A stretch of DNA of 45,969 nt from positions 25,466-71,434 of the forward strand of contig NZ_KV793803.1 in assembly GCF_001808555.1 (NCBI RefSeq). The letters run 5' to 3'. Each line of letters opens with the position of its first letter. Position 1 is the stretch's first letter. Origin of the DNA: Porphyromonas sp. HMSC065F10 (lineage in GTDB: Bacteria; Bacteroidota; Bacteroidia; Bacteroidales; Porphyromonadaceae). Of this stretch, positions 2,104 through 45,969 are shown piece by piece. The notes beneath the pieces were generated by a model. That model was given only the letters and a program-made list of their open reading frames with translations, did not search any database and was not told the origin of the DNA. A program made the translations under genes and the position numbers.

Positions 2104-2943
2104 ATGAGTCAAACTTCTATCAATGCAGCTGCTCGTGATGTCTTGAGAGACCTGGCGGCGATGTCTGTGGGAGCAGTGGGCGGCATAGTCCTGTACAATG
2201 CCCTGAAGAGCCGCTATCGTAGAGTGGAGACGCCCACGTCTCTGATTGACTCTATCACCTGCTATGAGGGACGGCATCCCTCGTCGGTGCTGACTTTTGG
2301 TTGGGATGAGGATGAGAAATTCTCTTGGGCGAGACGGATTTCTCTAGATAAGGAGGGCAACCGTCTCCATGAGTCACTTATAGAGTCTGAGGTGTACGAT
2401 CGGAAGCTACTCGTCGTGGAGACCGACTGCATGGAGGGGTGCAATACACCTGAGATCACCACGGTCGATCTTGACCCCTTTGGTATGGGAACCTCCCTCT
2501 CCTTCCGCCGGACGAGTGGTAGAGAGGAGCACTGGGATCTGAGGCTCTATGGCGGTCAGCTTGACAGCATCATCAGTCAGGATGGTGAGATGGATGTGAC
2601 TTGGGACACGGAGGGAAATATCACCTCTATCACCGGACACGAGGGAGAGTATCGTCAGGAGATGACCTACTATAGTAATGTTGGGAATCGGGTATTCCCT
2701 GACCTGAATTACCTCAGCGATGTGAGCTCGGTGAATTTCCTCTCCAGCTTCATACTCGGCTCCAGATCCTCCAACCTCATCTCCTCTATGGTGATCCGCC
2801 GACCGGACTACCACTACCACTTACTTGCCTCCTACCTGTGTGACCGCTTTGACCAGCCCCTACAGGTACGGCACGAGATCAAGGAGATCAAGGAGGGGGA
2901 AGTCAAGGAGTCAACCCTTCGGTACGATATAAAGTATCTGTAA
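2104..2943 (+). CDS. Hypothetical protein, DUF4595-like
   Basis: A 279-residue protein. It has one N-terminal hydrophobic stretch (about residues 18-32, AAMSVGAVGGIVLYNAL) with no clear cleavage site or lipobox. The body is beta-rich and YD-repeat-like (DSIISQDGEMDVTWDTEGNI). The later motif FPDLNYLSDVSSVNFLSSF followed by LGSRSSNLISS resembles the DUF4595 family of Bacteroidota, whose members are usually secreted or lipoproteins. A function cannot be given. It is divergent from bamD and sits 42 bp before the MscS-type gene. The start is the first ATG after the shared AT-rich gap. Confidence 0.6.
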   Translation: MSQTSINAAARDVLRDLAAMSVGAVGGIVLYNALKSRYRRVETPTSLIDSITCYEGRHPSSVLTFGWDEDEKFSWARRISLDKEGNRLHESLIESEVYDRKLLVVETDCMEGCNTPEITTVDLDPFGMGTSLSFRRTSGREEHWDLRLYGGQLDSIISQDGEMDVTWDTEGNITSITGHEGEYRQEMTYYSNVGNRVFPDLNYLSDVSSVNFLSSFILGSRSSNLISSMVIRRPDYHYHLLASYLCDRFDQPLQVRHEIKEIKEGEVKESTLRYDIKYL

Positions 2944-2985
2944 CTGATAACGCATTAGATATCCACCCAAAATAAATTTGTATCA

Positions 2986-4305
2986 ATGGATGATATTAGA
3001 GCCTTGCTCCTGAGGATTATCACTGGCTTTGACCTCGGGATTGAGCATGGATCCCTTGCCTACGAGATGCTTGTGCTTGGGATCGTTGTTGTATTCTTAG
3101 TGATCGTGGACTTCATACTCCGGCTGATCTTCATCAAAGGGCTGAGGGGGCTCCTGGGTAAGATTCCGTGGTTCAGTAGCTCAACGGCCGACGCTCGCAG
3201 TAATAAGGTCCTGAGTAAGCTTGTGAGCTTGATCGTTAGCTCAATATTTATTGGTCTGCTTACACTGCCCTTCCCCAATGGCGGTGCGTGGTATGTCGGT
3301 TTGTTGTTAGTGGCTCGACTTTGTCAGACCTTCTTCTTCTTTAGCTTACTTACCGCTGTCATTGACACCGGTCGGGCATGGATGCTTAAGCAGCCGCAGT
3401 ATAGGGATAATCCTATGGTCGCACTCTTGCAGGCCTTTAAGGTGCTGGCTATCTTCCTTGCGGTCTTGGTGGTGATATCGCTGCTCTTCCGCATTGATAT
3501 GAGCACAATATTCGGCAGTCTGGCAGCACTATCTGCAGTGCTGATGCTGATCTTTAAGGACACCATCCTCGGATTTGTAGCCAGTATACAGCTGACAGGT
3601 AGTGATATGGTCCATGTGGGTGACTGGATCACCGTGCCGGGTAAGAGCGTTGATGGAAACGTCGTAGAGATCTCGCTTACAACGGTCAAGGTGATGGGCT
3701 TTGATAACTCAATGTACACCATACCACCCTACGACTTAGTGAGCAACCCTGTGCAGAATTGGTCTAATATGCAGCGCTCCAATGCTCGTCTCTGTGCTCG
3801 CTCGATCTATATCGACATCTCCTCGATACGCTATGCTGATGATCAATTGATCAAGCGCCTGCGTCAGTCGGGCCTGCTGAGCCAGGTGATGGATCAGCTG
3901 ATTGCCGAGGTGGAGGATGAGAATAAGAAGCAGAGCCTGACGGATGACCTGACGCGGGTCAGGGTGACCAACCTGGGGCTCTTCCGAAATTATGTGCTTA
4001 AGTTCCTCGAGCAGTCCGATGCTGTGGACCACAACTACGATGCGATGTGCTTCCAGAAGCCGATGACTGAGATGGGACTGCCACTCCTCGTACGGTTCTT
4101 CACAAAGACCTCTAATTGGGGGATGCATGAGACCATCGCTGCCAATACCTTTGAGCATCTGATGGCAGTGATCTCGCTCTTTGATCTGAAGATATATCAG
4201 AAAGTCTCCTCCAGCAACTTAGCCTCGGCTACAGAGTCAGAGCTTAAGGAGATGCTTGCGACTAAGCAGGCTGCAGCGGACTCAGACAGCGAAGAGGCTA
4301 AGTGA
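2986..4305 (+). CDS. MscS-family mechanosensitive channel (YbdG-like)
   Basis: A 439-residue inner-membrane protein. Several hydrophobic segments occupy the N-terminal 200 residues, and the last contains the MscS pore-helix region (FGSLAALSAVLMLIFKDTILGF). It continues into the cytoplasmic beta-domain (GDWITVPGKSVDGNVVEISL and YTIPPYDLVSNPVQNWS). These channels open under membrane tension and release solutes on osmotic downshock. The length and the large C-terminal domain are closer to E. coli YbdG than to the 286-residue MscS. The C-terminus is acidic and low in complexity. It converges with the amidase gene across a shared terminator. Confidence 0.85.
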   Translation: MDDIRALLLRIITGFDLGIEHGSLAYEMLVLGIVVVFLVIVDFILRLIFIKGLRGLLGKIPWFSSSTADARSNKVLSKLVSLIVSSIFIGLLTLPFPNGGAWYVGLLLVARLCQTFFFFSLLTAVIDTGRAWMLKQPQYRDNPMVALLQAFKVLAIFLAVLVVISLLFRIDMSTIFGSLAALSAVLMLIFKDTILGFVASIQLTGSDMVHVGDWITVPGKSVDGNVVEISLTTVKVMGFDNSMYTIPPYDLVSNPVQNWSNMQRSNARLCARSIYIDISSIRYADDQLIKRLRQSGLLSQVMDQLIAEVEDENKKQSLTDDLTRVRVTNLGLFRNYVLKFLEQSDAVDHNYDAMCFQKPMTEMGLPLLVRFFTKTSNWGMHETIAANTFEHLMAVISLFDLKIYQKVSSSNLASATESELKEMLATKQAAADSDSEEAK

Positions 4306-15831: not shown

Positions 15832-15904
15832 AGCCTTCTATAGGACTCGAACCTACGACCATCTGATTACAAATCAGAAGCTCTACCAACTGAGCTAAGA
15901 AGGC
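15832..15904 (-). tRNA. tRNA-Thr (anticodon TGT)
   Basis: A complete cloverleaf on the minus strand: acceptor GCCTTCT pairs with AGAAGGC, the D-arm is AGCTCAGTTGGTAGAGCT, the anticodon stem TCTGA/TCAGA encloses loop TTTGTAA with anticodon TGT, and the T-arm contains GGTTCGAGTCC. CCA is not encoded. Its 5' end lies only about 4 nt from the end of the SRP RNA. Confidence 0.97.
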
Positions 15905-15907
15905 GGG

Positions 15908-16008
15908 TGGGCAAGCTGTCTACATCGCGCCGCTACAACCCACTACCCTTGCTGCGATCAAGCCCTGGGGGGATTCGTGGGGAGCTGGCCGTGTAGGACT
16001 TGCCCGGA
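15908..16008 (-). ncRNA. ffs: Signal recognition particle RNA (small bacterial type)
   Basis: On the minus strand about 97 nt fold into one long rod. The ends GGGCAAG (16005-15999) and CTTGCCC (15915-15909) pair, then CTACA with TGTAG, then CCCAC with GTGGG. The apex holds the conserved helix-8 signature CCCAGG...GCAGCAAGGGTAG that binds Ffh. This RNA is the scaffold of the particle that targets nascent membrane proteins. A strong promoter lies just upstream (16028-16058) and tRNA-Thr follows within about 4 nt, so both should come from one transcript. Exact mature ends are inferred from pairing. Confidence 0.85.
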
Positions 16009-16027
16009 TATTGTCGGCTTGACTATG

Positions 16028-16127: not shown

Positions 16128-16215
16128 AATCAACTCTGCCTCCTTTGGCATTTTTCTTTTACCGATATTAGGCGCAACTAATATCGGTAAAAGAAAAGTC
16201 TAATATCGGTATTAG
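16128..16215 (-). repeat. Palindrome array, locus 2
   Basis: Three 16-bp units at 22-bp period (16156-16171, 16178-16193, 16200-16215) with 6-nt spacers. Read on the minus strand they are CTAATACCGATATTAG, CTTTTACCGATATTAG and CTAATATCGGTAAAAG, followed by the degenerate 22-bp flank at 16149-16128. The array begins 8 bp after the rarA stop codon and points toward the SRP RNA promoter. The two leftmost units together also form a 19-bp inverted repeat (16152-16170 with 16179-16197). Confidence 0.85.
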
Positions 16216-16222
16216 ACTTCTC

Positions 16223-17515
16223 TCACTCCTGCTCTCCTTTCATTTGTCTCAGCCGCTGGAGTAGCTGAGCCTCTTGGGCATTGTCCGCCGGTCTCCAGAA
16301 GGAGGTGCCCACCACTTCGTCCGGGAGGTATTGCTGGGAGGCATAGTGTCCCTTGTAGTCGTGGGGGTAGATGTACCCCTTACCATACCCAAGCTCGTCC
16401 ATGAACTCCGTGGGAGCATTTCTCAGGTGCATCGGTACAGGGTGGGGTGGGCTCTCCCGGACGAATGCAAGAGCTTGGTTGATAGCAGTGTAGGCACTAT
16501 TGCTCTTGGGGGAGGAAGCGAGGTAGATGGTTGCCTCAGCCAGGGGGATACGCCCCTCAGGCCAGCCGATGCGCTCCACAGCGGTAAAGGCCGCTTCGGC
16601 GATCAGCATAGCATTGGGGTTGGCGAGACCGATGTCCTCTGACGCCGAGATGACCAGTCGGCGGGCGATAAACTTTGGGTCCTCTCCCCCATCGATCATC
16701 CTGGCGAGCCAGTATACGGCTGCATCGGGATCACTTCCACGGATGCTCTTGATGAAGGCCGATATGATGTCGTAGTGCATCTCGCCACCCTTGTCGTATA
16801 CGCCGGGGTTCCTCTGGATCTGCTGAGACACGATCTCATCGGAGATGGTGAAGCTCTTTCGCTCCAGAGCCTCCGGTGTTGTCGCGATGAGCTCCAGGAT
16901 ATTGAGGAACTTGCGGGCATCTCCTCCTGAGGCTGCAAAGAGAGCGTCTGTGGAGTCGATCTGCACCTCGTACTCCGTCAGCACCTCATCCCGAGAGAGG
17001 GTGTAGTGAAGGAGCTCATCCAGGTCACCCTGTGTGAGAGGCTTCAGGACGAGTACCCGGCATCGTGAGAGGAGTGGGCGGATCACCTCAAAAGACGGGT
17101 TCTCGGTCGTGGCGCCGATCAGCACCACGCTGCCCTGCTCCACGGCATGTAGCAGAGAGTCCTGCTGGGACTTACTGAAGCGGTGAATCTCGTCGATGAA
17201 GAGTATCGGTGCCCCCTGAGCAAAGAGACCATTTCTGTAGTCCTCGGCCTGCTTGATCACATCGCGAACCTCCTTGACCCCCGAACTTACTGCGCTGAGG
17301 GTGAAGAAGGGGAGGTCAAAGTGCTTGGCTACGATCCTCGCCAAGGTCGTCTTACCCACCCCGGGGGGACCCCACAGGATGAAGGAGCGAAGGAGCCCCG
17401 TCTGAAGCATATCGTGAATAGGTCCTCCGGGGCGGACTAAGTCGCTCTGACCGAAGTAGCCCTCAAGTGTGCCGGGTCTCATCCGTTCTGCGAGAGGGGG
17501 TAGGTTGGTATTCAT
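16223..17515 (-). CDS. rarA: Replication-associated recombination protein A (AAA+ ATPase)
   Basis: A 430-residue AAA+ ATPase of the RarA/MgsA/WRNIP1 family, which acts at stalled replication forks with single-strand-binding protein. Walker A is GPPGVGKTT (49-57) and Walker B is ILFIDEIHR (104-112); sensor 1 lies in GATTENPS. The C-terminal tetramerisation region follows. The ATG at 17515 fits the family N-terminus [17 protein letters not shown]; upstream ATGs at 17533 and 17572 lie too close to or upstream of a likely promoter box at 17546-17553. It is divergent from htpG. Confidence 0.93.
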
Positions 17516-17545
17516 CTTTAAGTCAGTGATCATAAGTGTTATGTA

Positions 17546-17553
17546 CAAAGGTA
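17546..17553 (-). promoter_or_regulatory. Likely -7 box for rarA
   Basis: TACCTTTG on the minus strand, about 31 bp before the rarA ATG, with a TTG 16 bp upstream, a spacer shorter than usual. Confidence 0.5.
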
Positions 17554-17603
17554 CCACTATTGTGTGTGACAATCATACCCCCACGTGGCGTCTCTTGATT
17601 CTT

Positions 17604-26818: not shown

Positions 26819-27580
26819 ATGGATAAGTTTATTGACATTAAAGTTAAGGTTTGGCGTCAGCGGAACCGTCATGAGAAGGGTCACTTCGAGACCTACGAGG
26901 TGAAGCATGTCGATGAGAACGCTTCCTTCCTTGAGATGATCGATATGCTCAATGATCAGCTCATCCGCGAGGGCAAGGACCCGGTTGTCTATGATAATGA
27001 CTGCCGCGAGGGTATCTGTGGCGCCTGCTCCATGTATGTGGATGGTCACCCCCATGGTCTCCTCCCCGGAGCAACCACCTGCCAGCTCTATATGCGTAAC
27101 TGGAAGAGTGGTGACACCATCACCGTAGAGCCGTGGCGCTCTGCAGGCTTCCCGGTCATCCGTGACCTGATGGTGGATCGCTCCTCTTTTGATAAGATCC
27201 AGCAGGCCGGAGGCTTCATCTCGATGAACGCCGGCTCCGCCCCTGATGGCAACGCGATCCCTGTATCGAGGGTTAACTCTGAGCTGGCTATCGATGCCGC
27301 CTCCTGCATCGGCTGTGGCGCATGTGTCGCAGCATGCAAGAATGGCTCCGCGATGCTCTTCGTCAGCGCCAAGGTAAGCCAATTTGCTCTCCTCCCCCAA
27401 GGTAGGGTCGAGGCCAAGAAGCGCGCTCGCGCCATGGTAGCCAAGATGGACGAGCTGGGCTTCGGTAACTGCACCAACACCCGCGCTTGTGAGATGGAGT
27501 GCCCGAAGAGCATCTCGATCTCCAATATCGCCCGTCTCAATCGCGAATTTATCAAGGCTAAGTTCGGTCAGACCGACTGA
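26819..27580 (+). CDS. sdhB: Succinate dehydrogenase/fumarate reductase iron-sulfur subunit
   Basis: A 253-residue electron-transfer subunit. The [2Fe-2S] ligands are C62, C67 and C70 (DCREGICGACSM) and C88 (TTCQLY). The [4Fe-4S]/[3Fe-4S] ligands lie in CIGCGACVAAC (163-173) and CTNTRACEMECPKSIS (218, 224, 228). The complete set indicates a working subunit that wires the flavin to the hemes. It is the last gene of sdhCAB, followed by a strong terminator. Confidence 0.96.
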   Translation: MDKFIDIKVKVWRQRNRHEKGHFETYEVKHVDENASFLEMIDMLNDQLIREGKDPVVYDNDCREGICGACSMYVDGHPHGLLPGATTCQLYMRNWKSGDTITVEPWRSAGFPVIRDLMVDRSSFDKIQQAGGFISMNAGSAPDGNAIPVSRVNSELAIDAASCIGCGACVAACKNGSAMLFVSAKVSQFALLPQGRVEAKKRARAMVAKMDELGFGNCTNTRACEMECPKSISISNIARLNREFIKAKFGQTD

Positions 27581-27860: not shown

Positions 27861-27948
27861 CTAATACCGATATTAGTGAAATCTAATATCGGTATTAGAG
27901 AAACCTAATATCGGTAAAGGATTTGACCCTGAAGTATAGGCTGATTTA
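27861..27948 (+). repeat. Palindrome array, locus 3 (best-preserved copy)
   Basis: Three 16-bp units at exact 22-bp period: CTAATACCGATATTAG (27861-27876), CTAATATCGGTATTAG (27883-27898) and CTAATATCGGTAAAGG (27905-27920). The spacers are TGAAAT and AGAAAC. The next 22 bp (27927-27948, beginning CCCTGAAG) match the flank at the other loci. It lies in the 680-bp gap before glyA and points toward the glyA promoter. Confidence 0.9.
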
Positions 27949-28259: not shown

Positions 28260-29552
28260 ATGAAAAGAGATCAACAGATTTTTGACCTGATCGACCAGGA
28301 GCGTCTGCGCCAGAAGCGCGGAGTGGAGCTGATCGCATCAGAGAACTTCGTCAGCGAGGAGGTACTCCGCGCTATGGGTAGCATCATGACCAACAAGTAC
28401 GCTGAGGGCTATCCCGGCAAGCGTTACTATGGTGGCTGCCAGATCGTCGACCAGAGTGAGCAGCTGGCCATCGATCGCATCAAGAAGCTCTACGATGCCG
28501 AGTATGCCAACGTGCAGCCTCACTCTGGTGCTCAGGCCAATATGTCTGTCTTCCAGGCTTGCCTCAATGCCGGTGACACCTTTATGGGTCTAAACCTCGA
28601 CCACGGTGGTCACCTGACCCACGGCTCGCTCGTCAACGCCTCCGGTATCCTCTACCACCCCGTAGCTTACGGTGTGCGCAAGGAAGATGGTCGCGTAGAC
28701 TACGATGATATGGAGCGCAAGGCTAAGGAGACCCACCCGAAGCTGATCGTCGGTGGTGCCTCTGCCTACTCTCGCGAGTGGGACTACAAGCGTATGCGCG
28801 AGATCGCTGATAGCGTCGGTGCAATCCTCATGATCGATATGGCTCACCCTGCAGGTCTCATCGCTGCCGGCCTCCTCGCCAATCCGGTGAAGTACGCCCA
28901 TATCGTTACCTCTACGACCCACAAGACCCTCAGAGGTCCGCGTGGTGGTATCATCCTGATGGGTAAGGACTTCGAGAACCCCTGGGGCAAGGCTACCAAG
29001 AAGGGTCGCATCAAGATGATGTCAGAGCTGATCAACTCTGCTGTCTTCCCCGGAGTGCAGGGTGGCCCTCTGGAGCACGTGATTGCTGCCAAGGCAGTTG
29101 CCTTCTACGAGGCTCTGCAGCCTTCCTTTAAGACCTACCAGACTCAGGTGCATGCCAATGCGGTAACCATGGCAGATACCTTCCTTGAGCTGGGCTATGA
29201 CGTGGTCTCCGGCGGTACTGACAACCACCTGGTGCTGTTGGATCTCCGTAAGAAGTTCCCCGAGCTGACCGGTAAGGAGGCTGAGGATGCACTGGTGAAG
29301 GCTGACATCACGGCCAATAAGAATATGGTCCCCTTCGATGATCGTACCCCTGCCAAGACAAGCGGTATCCGCATCGGAAGCCCTGCAGCCACGACCCGTG
29401 GACTGAAGGAGGGAGACTTCAAGACCGTCGTACACTGGATCGATGAGATCCTCAGCAATCCTACCAGCGAGGAGGTGATCAAGAAGGTCCGCTCTCAGGT
29501 CAATGAGCTGATGGAGGATCGTCCTCTGAACGTCTGGGAGGATCGCGACTAA
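28260..29552 (+). CDS. glyA: Serine hydroxymethyltransferase
   Basis: A 430-residue PLP enzyme that interconverts serine and glycine with tetrahydrofolate, the main source of one-carbon units. The PLP lysine is K222 in [15 protein letters not shown]193 and H196 ([10 protein letters not shown]) and the N-terminal ELIASENF block complete the active site. The length is normal. A single gene with its own promoter; the GH20 gene starts 36 bp after it and may be read through. Codon use shows the strong C-ending preference of a highly expressed gene. Confidence 0.97.
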
Positions 29553-45925: not shown

Positions 45926-45969
45926 GAAAGATCCTCTACCTACAGGGTCATTTCTTTTACCGGTAAAAG
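45926..45969 (-). repeat. Palindrome array, locus 4 (cut by window edge)
   Basis: The perfect palindrome CTTTTACCGGTAAAAG (45954-45969) reaches the last base of the window. On the minus strand it is followed by AAATGA and then the flank beginning CCCTGTAGG (45947-45926), closely matching the flank at 27927. Further units probably lie beyond the window. It lies upstream of the phosphoesterase promoter. Confidence 0.8.

Follow-up and report, generated by a model that had tools for sequence, protein, structure and literature searches.

Dispersed intergenic arrays of 16-bp palindromes at a 22-bp step in Porphyromonas and other Bacteroidales, possible cooperative nodes of chromosome organization

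The window, a 45,969-nt stretch of the genome of Porphyromonas sp. HMSC065F10 (hereafter G000, a 2.12-Mb draft in 103 contigs; the window corresponds to G000:C92:25466-71434), carries four arrays of a 16-bp palindrome repeated at a 22-bp step, none of which has an assigned strand. The first complete array (16156-16215) is composed of three palindromes, at 16156-16171, 16178-16193 and 16200-16215, and lies between an SRP RNA gene (15905-16012, minus strand) and a gene encoding a RarA-like AAA ATPase (16223-17572, minus strand). A tRNA and this Bacteroidales small SRP RNA, as identified with Rfam, are arranged in tandem on the minus strand at 15832-16012, adjoining the array. The second complete array (27861-27920) also exhibits three palindromes (27861-27876, 27883-27898 and 27905-27920, the third with one mismatch), and is flanked by plus-strand genes for a succinate dehydrogenase/fumarate reductase iron-sulfur subunit (26819-27580) and a serine hydroxymethyltransferase (28260-29552). 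Among named loci, related succinate dehydrogenase subunit genes were found in Porphyromonas uenonis (74% amino acid identity) and P. gulae (73%), behind a Bacteroidaceae MAG (75%), in a search from which records of this or very near genomes may be missing. At the same junction, the genome of a sister species (hereafter G001) has an array of four units. An array was observed upstream of glyA, the serine hydroxymethyltransferase gene, in G000, G001 and a further relative, G002, with a different palindrome in G002.

The two remaining arrays are cut. One occupies positions 1-50, with a partial unit at 1-6 and units at 13-28 and 35-50, at the 22-bp step; the other begins with a unit at 45954-45969 and enters an assembly gap, past which further units were found at G000:C92:71549-71586. 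Both are interrupted by runs of N, which are assembly gaps and not biology, and since these gaps fall inside arrays, the window starts and stops in arrays. All units of the four loci listed in the original prediction were found again at the same coordinates. Its unit model held for the 22-bp step and the 6-nt spacer, whereas its letters had to be corrected: the unit has the consensus CTWWTAYCGRTAWWAG, and the 6-nt spacer after it is nearly free.

The original prediction had proposed a scan of the whole genome, in which the element might have proved limited to a few chance loci. Exact copies of CTWWTAYCGRTAWWAG numbered 318 in G000 and 332 in G001, with none for the reversed control, so the element is present in hundreds of copies. 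In the stretches sampled from the two genomes (762 kb and 626 kb, respectively, with genes predicted by our own simple gene caller), 46 arrays were observed in G000 and 60 in G001, and none on the reversed sequence of these stretches; extrapolation from the sampled density gave estimated totals of about 130 and 190 arrays, respectively. Among the 38 G000 arrays that were gap-free and regular in step, 20 had three units, 13 had four, 4 had two and 1 had a single unit. Those of G001 (n = 60) contained four units (42 arrays), three (17 arrays) or one (1 array). One G000 array exhibited a 21-bp step between two units. The earlier statement that complete arrays have three units therefore applies to the two complete arrays of the window and not genome-wide, where three or four units are common and one or two also occur.

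The information content per position was 1.65 bits in G000 and 1.54 bits in G001 for the core, versus 0.39 and 0.44 bits, respectively, for the spacer. The two arms of the palindrome varied independently, with pairing arms in 80 out of 112 cases in G000 (79.6 expected) and 64 out of 153 in G001 (72.1 expected), which indicates that base pairing, or a hairpin, is not the conserved property. The centre TCGA was avoided in both genomes (1 observed versus 18.8 expected in G000, and 0 versus 4.7 in G001). In G000, the centre letter was mostly C in the outermost half-sites (65 C and 10 T) and mixed in the inner ones (77 C and 88 T), so that whole arrays tend to mirror symmetry; little mirror symmetry was seen in G001 (97 C and 23 T in outer half-sites, 239 C and 75 T in inner ones). 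Exact consensus units accounted for 111 of the 121 in G000 (10 with any mismatch) and 149 of the 220 in G001 (71 with one to three mismatches). Moreover, an odd variant, CTATAGT, was common to 19 half-sites.

As originally predicted, the arrays are intergenic (105 of the 106 sampled), the remaining one overlapping the end of a predicted gene. The intergenic arrays were found between tandem genes (58), divergent genes (29) or convergent genes (5), or at contig edges (13), and when contig-edge and gene-overlapping arrays were left out, 87 out of 92, in tandem or divergent regions, had at least one gene downstream of them. Among intergenic regions of at least 100 bp, the divergent ones were the richest, with 29 of 65 occupied, versus 58 of 280 tandem and 5 of 24 convergent regions.

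The arrays were evenly spaced and separated by a minimum distance. Intervals averaged 10.5 kb in G001 (n = 50; minimum 4.7 kb; CV 0.44), which has no N runs, and 17.8 kb in G000 (n = 34; minimum 8.7 kb; CV 0.40), where 8 of the 40 N runs in the sample lay at known arrays and arrays hidden in assembly gaps could split long intervals or, in principle, create shorter ones. When arrays were placed at random in the intergenic regions of all sampled contigs (20,000 draws), the mean CV was about 0.80 for G000 and 0.82 for G001, the largest minimum was 5.0 kb and 2.9 kb, respectively, and the observed CV and the observed minimum were each matched in none of the 20,000 draws, in both genomes. With a smaller G000 set (three contigs, comprising the first 19 of the 34 intervals), a CV as low was obtained in 4 of 20,000 draws. 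Placement in non-convergent regions of at least 180 bp only, with or without length weighting, gave 2-3 of 10,000 draws for G000 (19 intervals) and 0 of 10,000 for G001.

The sequence CTWWTAYCGRTAWWAG itself has a narrow distribution. It was abundant in 2 of the 12 genomes of the genus (G000 and G001, the other ten having 0 or 1 copy) and in 2 of the 38 genomes of the family. Among 393 sampled genomes of the order, of which G001 was not one, only G000 had more than three copies, and counts in the others were close to those of the reversed control. Other genomes were then examined by a sequence-blind scan, in which three palindromes had to follow one another at a constant step of 17-33 bp and to resemble one another in their half-sites, with a threshold on mean half-site identity. 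In 100-kb samples of four relatives, at an identity of at least 0.62, the 22-bp step gave 12 hits, versus 4 for the other sixteen steps together and 0 for shuffled sequence. These hits came from G003 (6, of which 3 fall in a region of plain tandem repeats, 17.6-18.2 kb into the sample), G002 (5) and G006 (1), with 0 in G011. The palindromes were of the types CAAGTCGTTTGACTTG and ACAGAATACATTCTGT in G002, GTTTCCTATAGGAAAC in G006 and GTAAACACGTTTAC in G003. In 80 named Bacteroidales loci (1.34 Mb), the excess at step 22 depended on the threshold, with 7 hits versus at most 2 for any other step at 0.68, 8 hits versus 3 each at steps 18 and 21 at 0.65, and 10 hits versus 8 at step 21 at 0.60. Two of the ten step-22 hits (L070 and L089), being weak or simple tandem repeats, were left out; the eight counted were clear arrays, each with its own palindrome, from P. 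gulae, another Porphyromonas sp., three Parabacteroides, a Tannerellaceae MAG, UBA7332 and Bacteroides luti.

Dispersal was seen in all three of the genomes searched genome-wide, each with a reversed control of 0: B. luti (81 strand matches at 76 sites, mostly in four-unit arrays in the stretches read), G002 (73 sites at 55 loci) and Parabacteroides chinchillae (29 strand matches, 23 sites and 8 loci on 7 contigs). The minimum distance was 7.5 kb among the 55 loci of G002 and 13.0 kb among 31 intervals of B. luti, values reached in 5e-5 and 1e-4 of uniform draws, respectively, under nulls that ignore intergenic placement and, for B. luti, assume some contig sizes. A blind scan of 280 kb of G002 at 0.58 revealed 19 arrays belonging to two interleaved families, with three pairs of unlike family about 5 kb apart. 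The sole breach of the exclusion distance seen within one palindrome family was a pair of near-identical G002 arrays 1.6 kb apart (G002:C1:1464270 and 1465851), apparently a local duplicate. Chance or an assembly artefact was ruled out by the reversed controls and by recurrence in other genomes, one of which is a single 2.4-Mb contig. What is conserved is the geometry, in which three to four dyads of 16 bp succeed one another every two helical turns or so, and not the sequence.

Some individual arrays differed from this general picture. At G002:C1:812816-813007 (locus L238, G002:C1:803001-823000), eight exact AAAGTCGTTAGACTTG units and an imperfect ninth follow one another at the 22-bp step, whereas most other arrays have three; this may be a special site or a recent expansion. 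Further step-22 arrays were observed in B. luti (L215-L216, G427:C21), one of the AACTCCGGCCGGAGTT type at 129862 and an AT-rich one at about 108421, and this genome may, like G002, hold two array families.

The comparison of G000 with G001 gave a measure of turnover. Their serine hydroxymethyltransferases are 99% identical in amino acids (69-75% for the others), and nucleotide identity is 86% over a 263-kb alignable sample. Eight G001 arrays had both flanks syntenic in the G000 sample, of which four were shared and four were absent from G000; the others had flanks mapping to different places (13), a single mapped flank (22) or none (17). In three orthologous arrays with an alignable flank, a set biased to intact arrays because decayed ones would not be called shared, fixed core letters were kept at 99 of 100 positions, degenerate core letters at 42 of 60 and spacers at 18 of 41, so that substitutions stay within the consensus.

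The flanks of G001 arrays resembled one another (22.7 bits, versus about 6.2 in control intergenic regions), and a CTGN4-5CAG box without clear ends was present in the flanks of 21 of 59 G001 arrays versus 3 of 112 controls. This shared flanking sequence indicates that at least some copies spread by copying from common sources. In two comparisons of filled and empty sites between G000 and G001, the intergenic sequence was too diverged for a clean empty site. Moreover, synteny blocks frequently ended at arrays: in these draft genomes, of which G000 is scaffolded with gaps, an array lay no more than 700 bp beyond 31 of 47 block ends in G001, 15 of 47 in G000 and 36 of 47 in either, versus 99 of 318 (G001) and 70 of 420 (G000) control gene edges. 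This is what either recombination at arrays or the origin of arrays at breaks would produce.

Among candidate binders, a dedicated Noc/ParB paralogue was rejected, as no such gene was found in six of the seven array-bearing genomes. These six have one ParB_N gene each, with no spare ParB/Noc-type gene, and P. chinchillae has two; near-canonical parS was found only in G003 among the samples. Together, these results suggest that the ParB/Noc family is not the obvious partner. A comparison of 275 neighbour proteins, which could have revealed an autoregulated partner gene beside the arrays, yielded no family recurrent in all genomes. A Pfam scan covered 53 of the 59 small neighbours selected (3 were without locus reference and 3 were omitted from the alignments), and their families were unrelated and mostly housekeeping, with no common pathway for the small genes immediately downstream of arrays, among the matches listed (25 of 37 and 25 of 31). 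An Lrp/AsnC gene lies beside the G000 array at C92:98077, and no array occurs within 700 bp of the corresponding block end in G001. In addition, a cluster resembling a type I restriction-modification system (HsdM, HsdS and HsdR, recognized by eye) at L239 3414-10496 adjoins the palindrome array at 3414-3473.

A fixed geometry, half-sites that vary independently and free spacers are together, we infer, the signature of cooperating DNA-binding dimers. Each array would cooperatively bind three or four dimers of a single putative sequence-specific DNA-binding protein, and the 22-bp step, about two helical turns, would set these dimers on nearly one face of the DNA, where they could touch. The arrays would form nucleoprotein nodes across the chromosome, between transcription units, and these nodes would most likely act in chromosome organization (anchoring of loops or domains, nucleoid occlusion or segregation), like the sites of Noc, SlmA and MatP. 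New arrays would come from copying, arrays too near one another would not be kept, and the palindrome, presumably together with the specificity of the protein, would shift between lineages while the geometry stays. The original prediction had suggested a protein that binds cooperatively at scattered sites; the 22-bp geometry, the independent half-sites, the constrained core and the free spacer argue for such binding, and among the roles then listed the exclusion zone favors chromosome organization. Indeed, mixed neighbour families combined with an exclusion distance point to a chromosome-scale role rather than to a regulon.

We consider chromosome-organizing cooperative nodes for a putative dimeric protein, seeded by copying, to be the best explanation of the arrays, a tentative choice whose chance of being right comes close to even. 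Several observations count against it. Four of the eight comparable positions are unshared at 86% nucleotide identity, which is fast for an essential site; G001 units show decay (71 of 220 with one to three mismatches); one G002 pair breaches the exclusion distance; and, for the palindrome to differ among congeneric species, a large number of sites must have changed in concert.

A non-autonomous mobile repeat is what we regard as the strongest alternative, although rather unlikely. Its palindromes would be transposase sites, any host function would be secondary or absent, and an immunity like that of Mu and Tn7 would bar copies within 5-13 kb and so produce the even spacing; transposition immunity near Mu ends is described in part of one report (PMC7350765). 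The shared flanks of G001 arrays, their CTGN4-5CAG box and the CTATAGT variant in 19 half-sites are all consistent with a mobile repeat, as are the turnover of positions between sister species, the existence of lineage-specific families (two in G002), the 71 of 220 G001 units off consensus and the synteny block ends at arrays (31 of 47 in G001 versus 99 of 318 control gene edges). However, no terminal repeats or target duplication were found, in intergenic sequence too diverged for a clean empty site to be seen, and 111 of the 121 G000 units were exact. Dead copies should, moreover, decay in core and spacer alike, whereas 99 of 100 fixed core letters versus 18 of 41 spacer letters were kept in the three orthologous arrays.

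Y1 transposases also argue against it, since they were absent from five of the seven array-bearing genomes. PF01797 was missing in G002, G003, G006, P. chinchillae and B. luti, and present in two copies each in G000 and G001, so REP/RAYT was rejected as the general cause. Three of the four Y1 genes of G000 and G001 were read with their flanks and lay, by eye, among unrelated GC-rich repeats; a REP family with a known transposase, which the original prediction had named as a possible identity of the element, was thus not what we found. The Y1 genes are located at L239 (G000:C67) 1-1000, at L240 (G001:C72) 2500-3700 and near L181 10062-10406 (G000:C86:30062-30406), and the fourth (L241) was seen as an ORF only. 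The GC-rich dispersed repeats around them carry inverted motifs such as GACCCCTTGCGGGTCG and appear by eye to be REP/RAYT-like and separate from the arrays. The mobile repeat offered in the original prediction is partly right, in that at least some copies spread by copying, according to the G001 flanks. It may also be true together with the cooperative nodes, should copying supply sites that are then put to use by the cell.

Arrays upstream of at least one gene in 87 of 92 cases, with divergent regions the richest (29 of 65), would be expected of the operators of a large conventional regulon, in which a transcription factor acts on tandem operators upstream of promoters. We nevertheless find this unlikely: even spacing is unexpected for operators, the neighbour families are unrelated and mostly housekeeping (53 small proteins, among the matches listed), and the sister species share only half of the positions that could be compared. 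It is very improbable that the arrays are DNA uptake or transfer tags maintained through biased import, like the uptake sequences of Haemophilus and Neisseria. A lineage-specific motif, intergenic and roughly evenly spaced, would suit such tags, and P. gingivalis is competent; uptake sequences, however, are 9-12 nt long and occur about once per kb, point mutation is an unlikely source of arrays 60-82 bp long, and we know of no competence in B. luti or Parabacteroides. RNA or DNA hairpins, whether terminators or REP-type palindromes, are hardly credible, since the arms do not covary in G000 or G001, no T-run occurs in the window arrays and Rfam gave no match at any of the four, even though the units are palindromic and what look by eye like terminators precede some of the arrays.

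Other identities were rejected. A CRISPR array would have unique spacers of at least 25 nt between direct repeats, whereas the spacers here are 6 nt and the arrays mostly have 3-4 units. No match to two consecutive units was found in viral contigs, and no similar DNA was found in plasmid or phage records, although entries from this or very near genomes may be missing from all three sets; a phage or plasmid origin was therefore set aside.

The chromosome-organizing reading can be extended to a bolder proposal, which is possible but more doubtful than credible at present. Bacteroidales may have an undescribed spacing system, in which a fast-changing family of binders would act on 22-bp-step arrays of three or four palindromes, which in the best-sampled genomes occur about once every 10-20 kb, with an exclusion zone; the arrays would be domain boundaries or anchors and preferred points of rearrangement, a bacterial analogue of CTCF sites, disseminated by repeats. 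If the binder organizes the chromosome, the arrays offer an entry to nucleoid organization in a major order of gut and oral bacteria; if the binder proves to be a transposase, they record in nature how transposition immunity acts at long range. In both cases, they are a ready bait for the protein, and they mark synteny breaks in two sister genomes.

To our knowledge, a constant geometry of several palindromes, an exclusion distance of 5-13 kb and lineage-dependent sequence have not been described together in any family of bacterial sites, and no description of such arrays was found among the titles and abstracts listed for open-licence papers. The Noc-binding sites of Bacillus subtilis are palindromic and 16 bp long, as here, according to part of one report (PMC8429893), and about 70 of them are dispersed over most of the chromosome, as are the present arrays, according to part of another (PMC4331003). 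The excerpts of these reports (PMC8429893, PMC4331003) do not mention 22-bp-step arrays, whereas the sites described here form stepped arrays with a lineage-dependent motif and occur in genomes of which six out of seven have no Noc/ParB paralogue. Noc sites are the nearest known system in type of function, and membership in the ParB/Noc family is not supported.

REP and BIME elements are intergenic, palindromic and lineage-specific and occur in hundreds of copies, and the arrays are alike in these respects; they differ from REP/BIME-RAYT in having multi-unit arrays, a fixed step, spacing exclusion and no covariation. The Lrp-type protein Ss-LrpB binds three conserved targets cooperatively, with the DNA wrapped round three dimers, as described in part of its report (PMC2995911). 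There, it binds single control regions, and even genome-wide spacing is not described in that part of the text (PMC2995911), whereas the present arrays are genome-wide. The BrickBuilt MITE of Porphyromonas gingivalis, according to an excerpt of its description (PMC4596501), also consists of intergenic tandem short repeats; its repeat is 23 nt without spacers, in 19 copies, with a leader and a tail bearing IS5-type inverted ends, whereas the arrays here have a 22-bp step and a free 6-nt spacer, and no IS5-type ends were seen. The same excerpt mentions that 22-nt tandem repeats in P. gingivalis W83 were described in an earlier report (PMC4596501). These W83 repeats may be relatives of the present arrays, or the same kind of array. 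The earlier report is presumably the W83 genome paper. Finally, the lambda operators OL and OR each comprise three tandem palindromic operators (about 23-24 bp), which are bound cooperatively and able to loop; they occupy two places in one phage, whereas here a hundred or more arrays are set along the chromosome.
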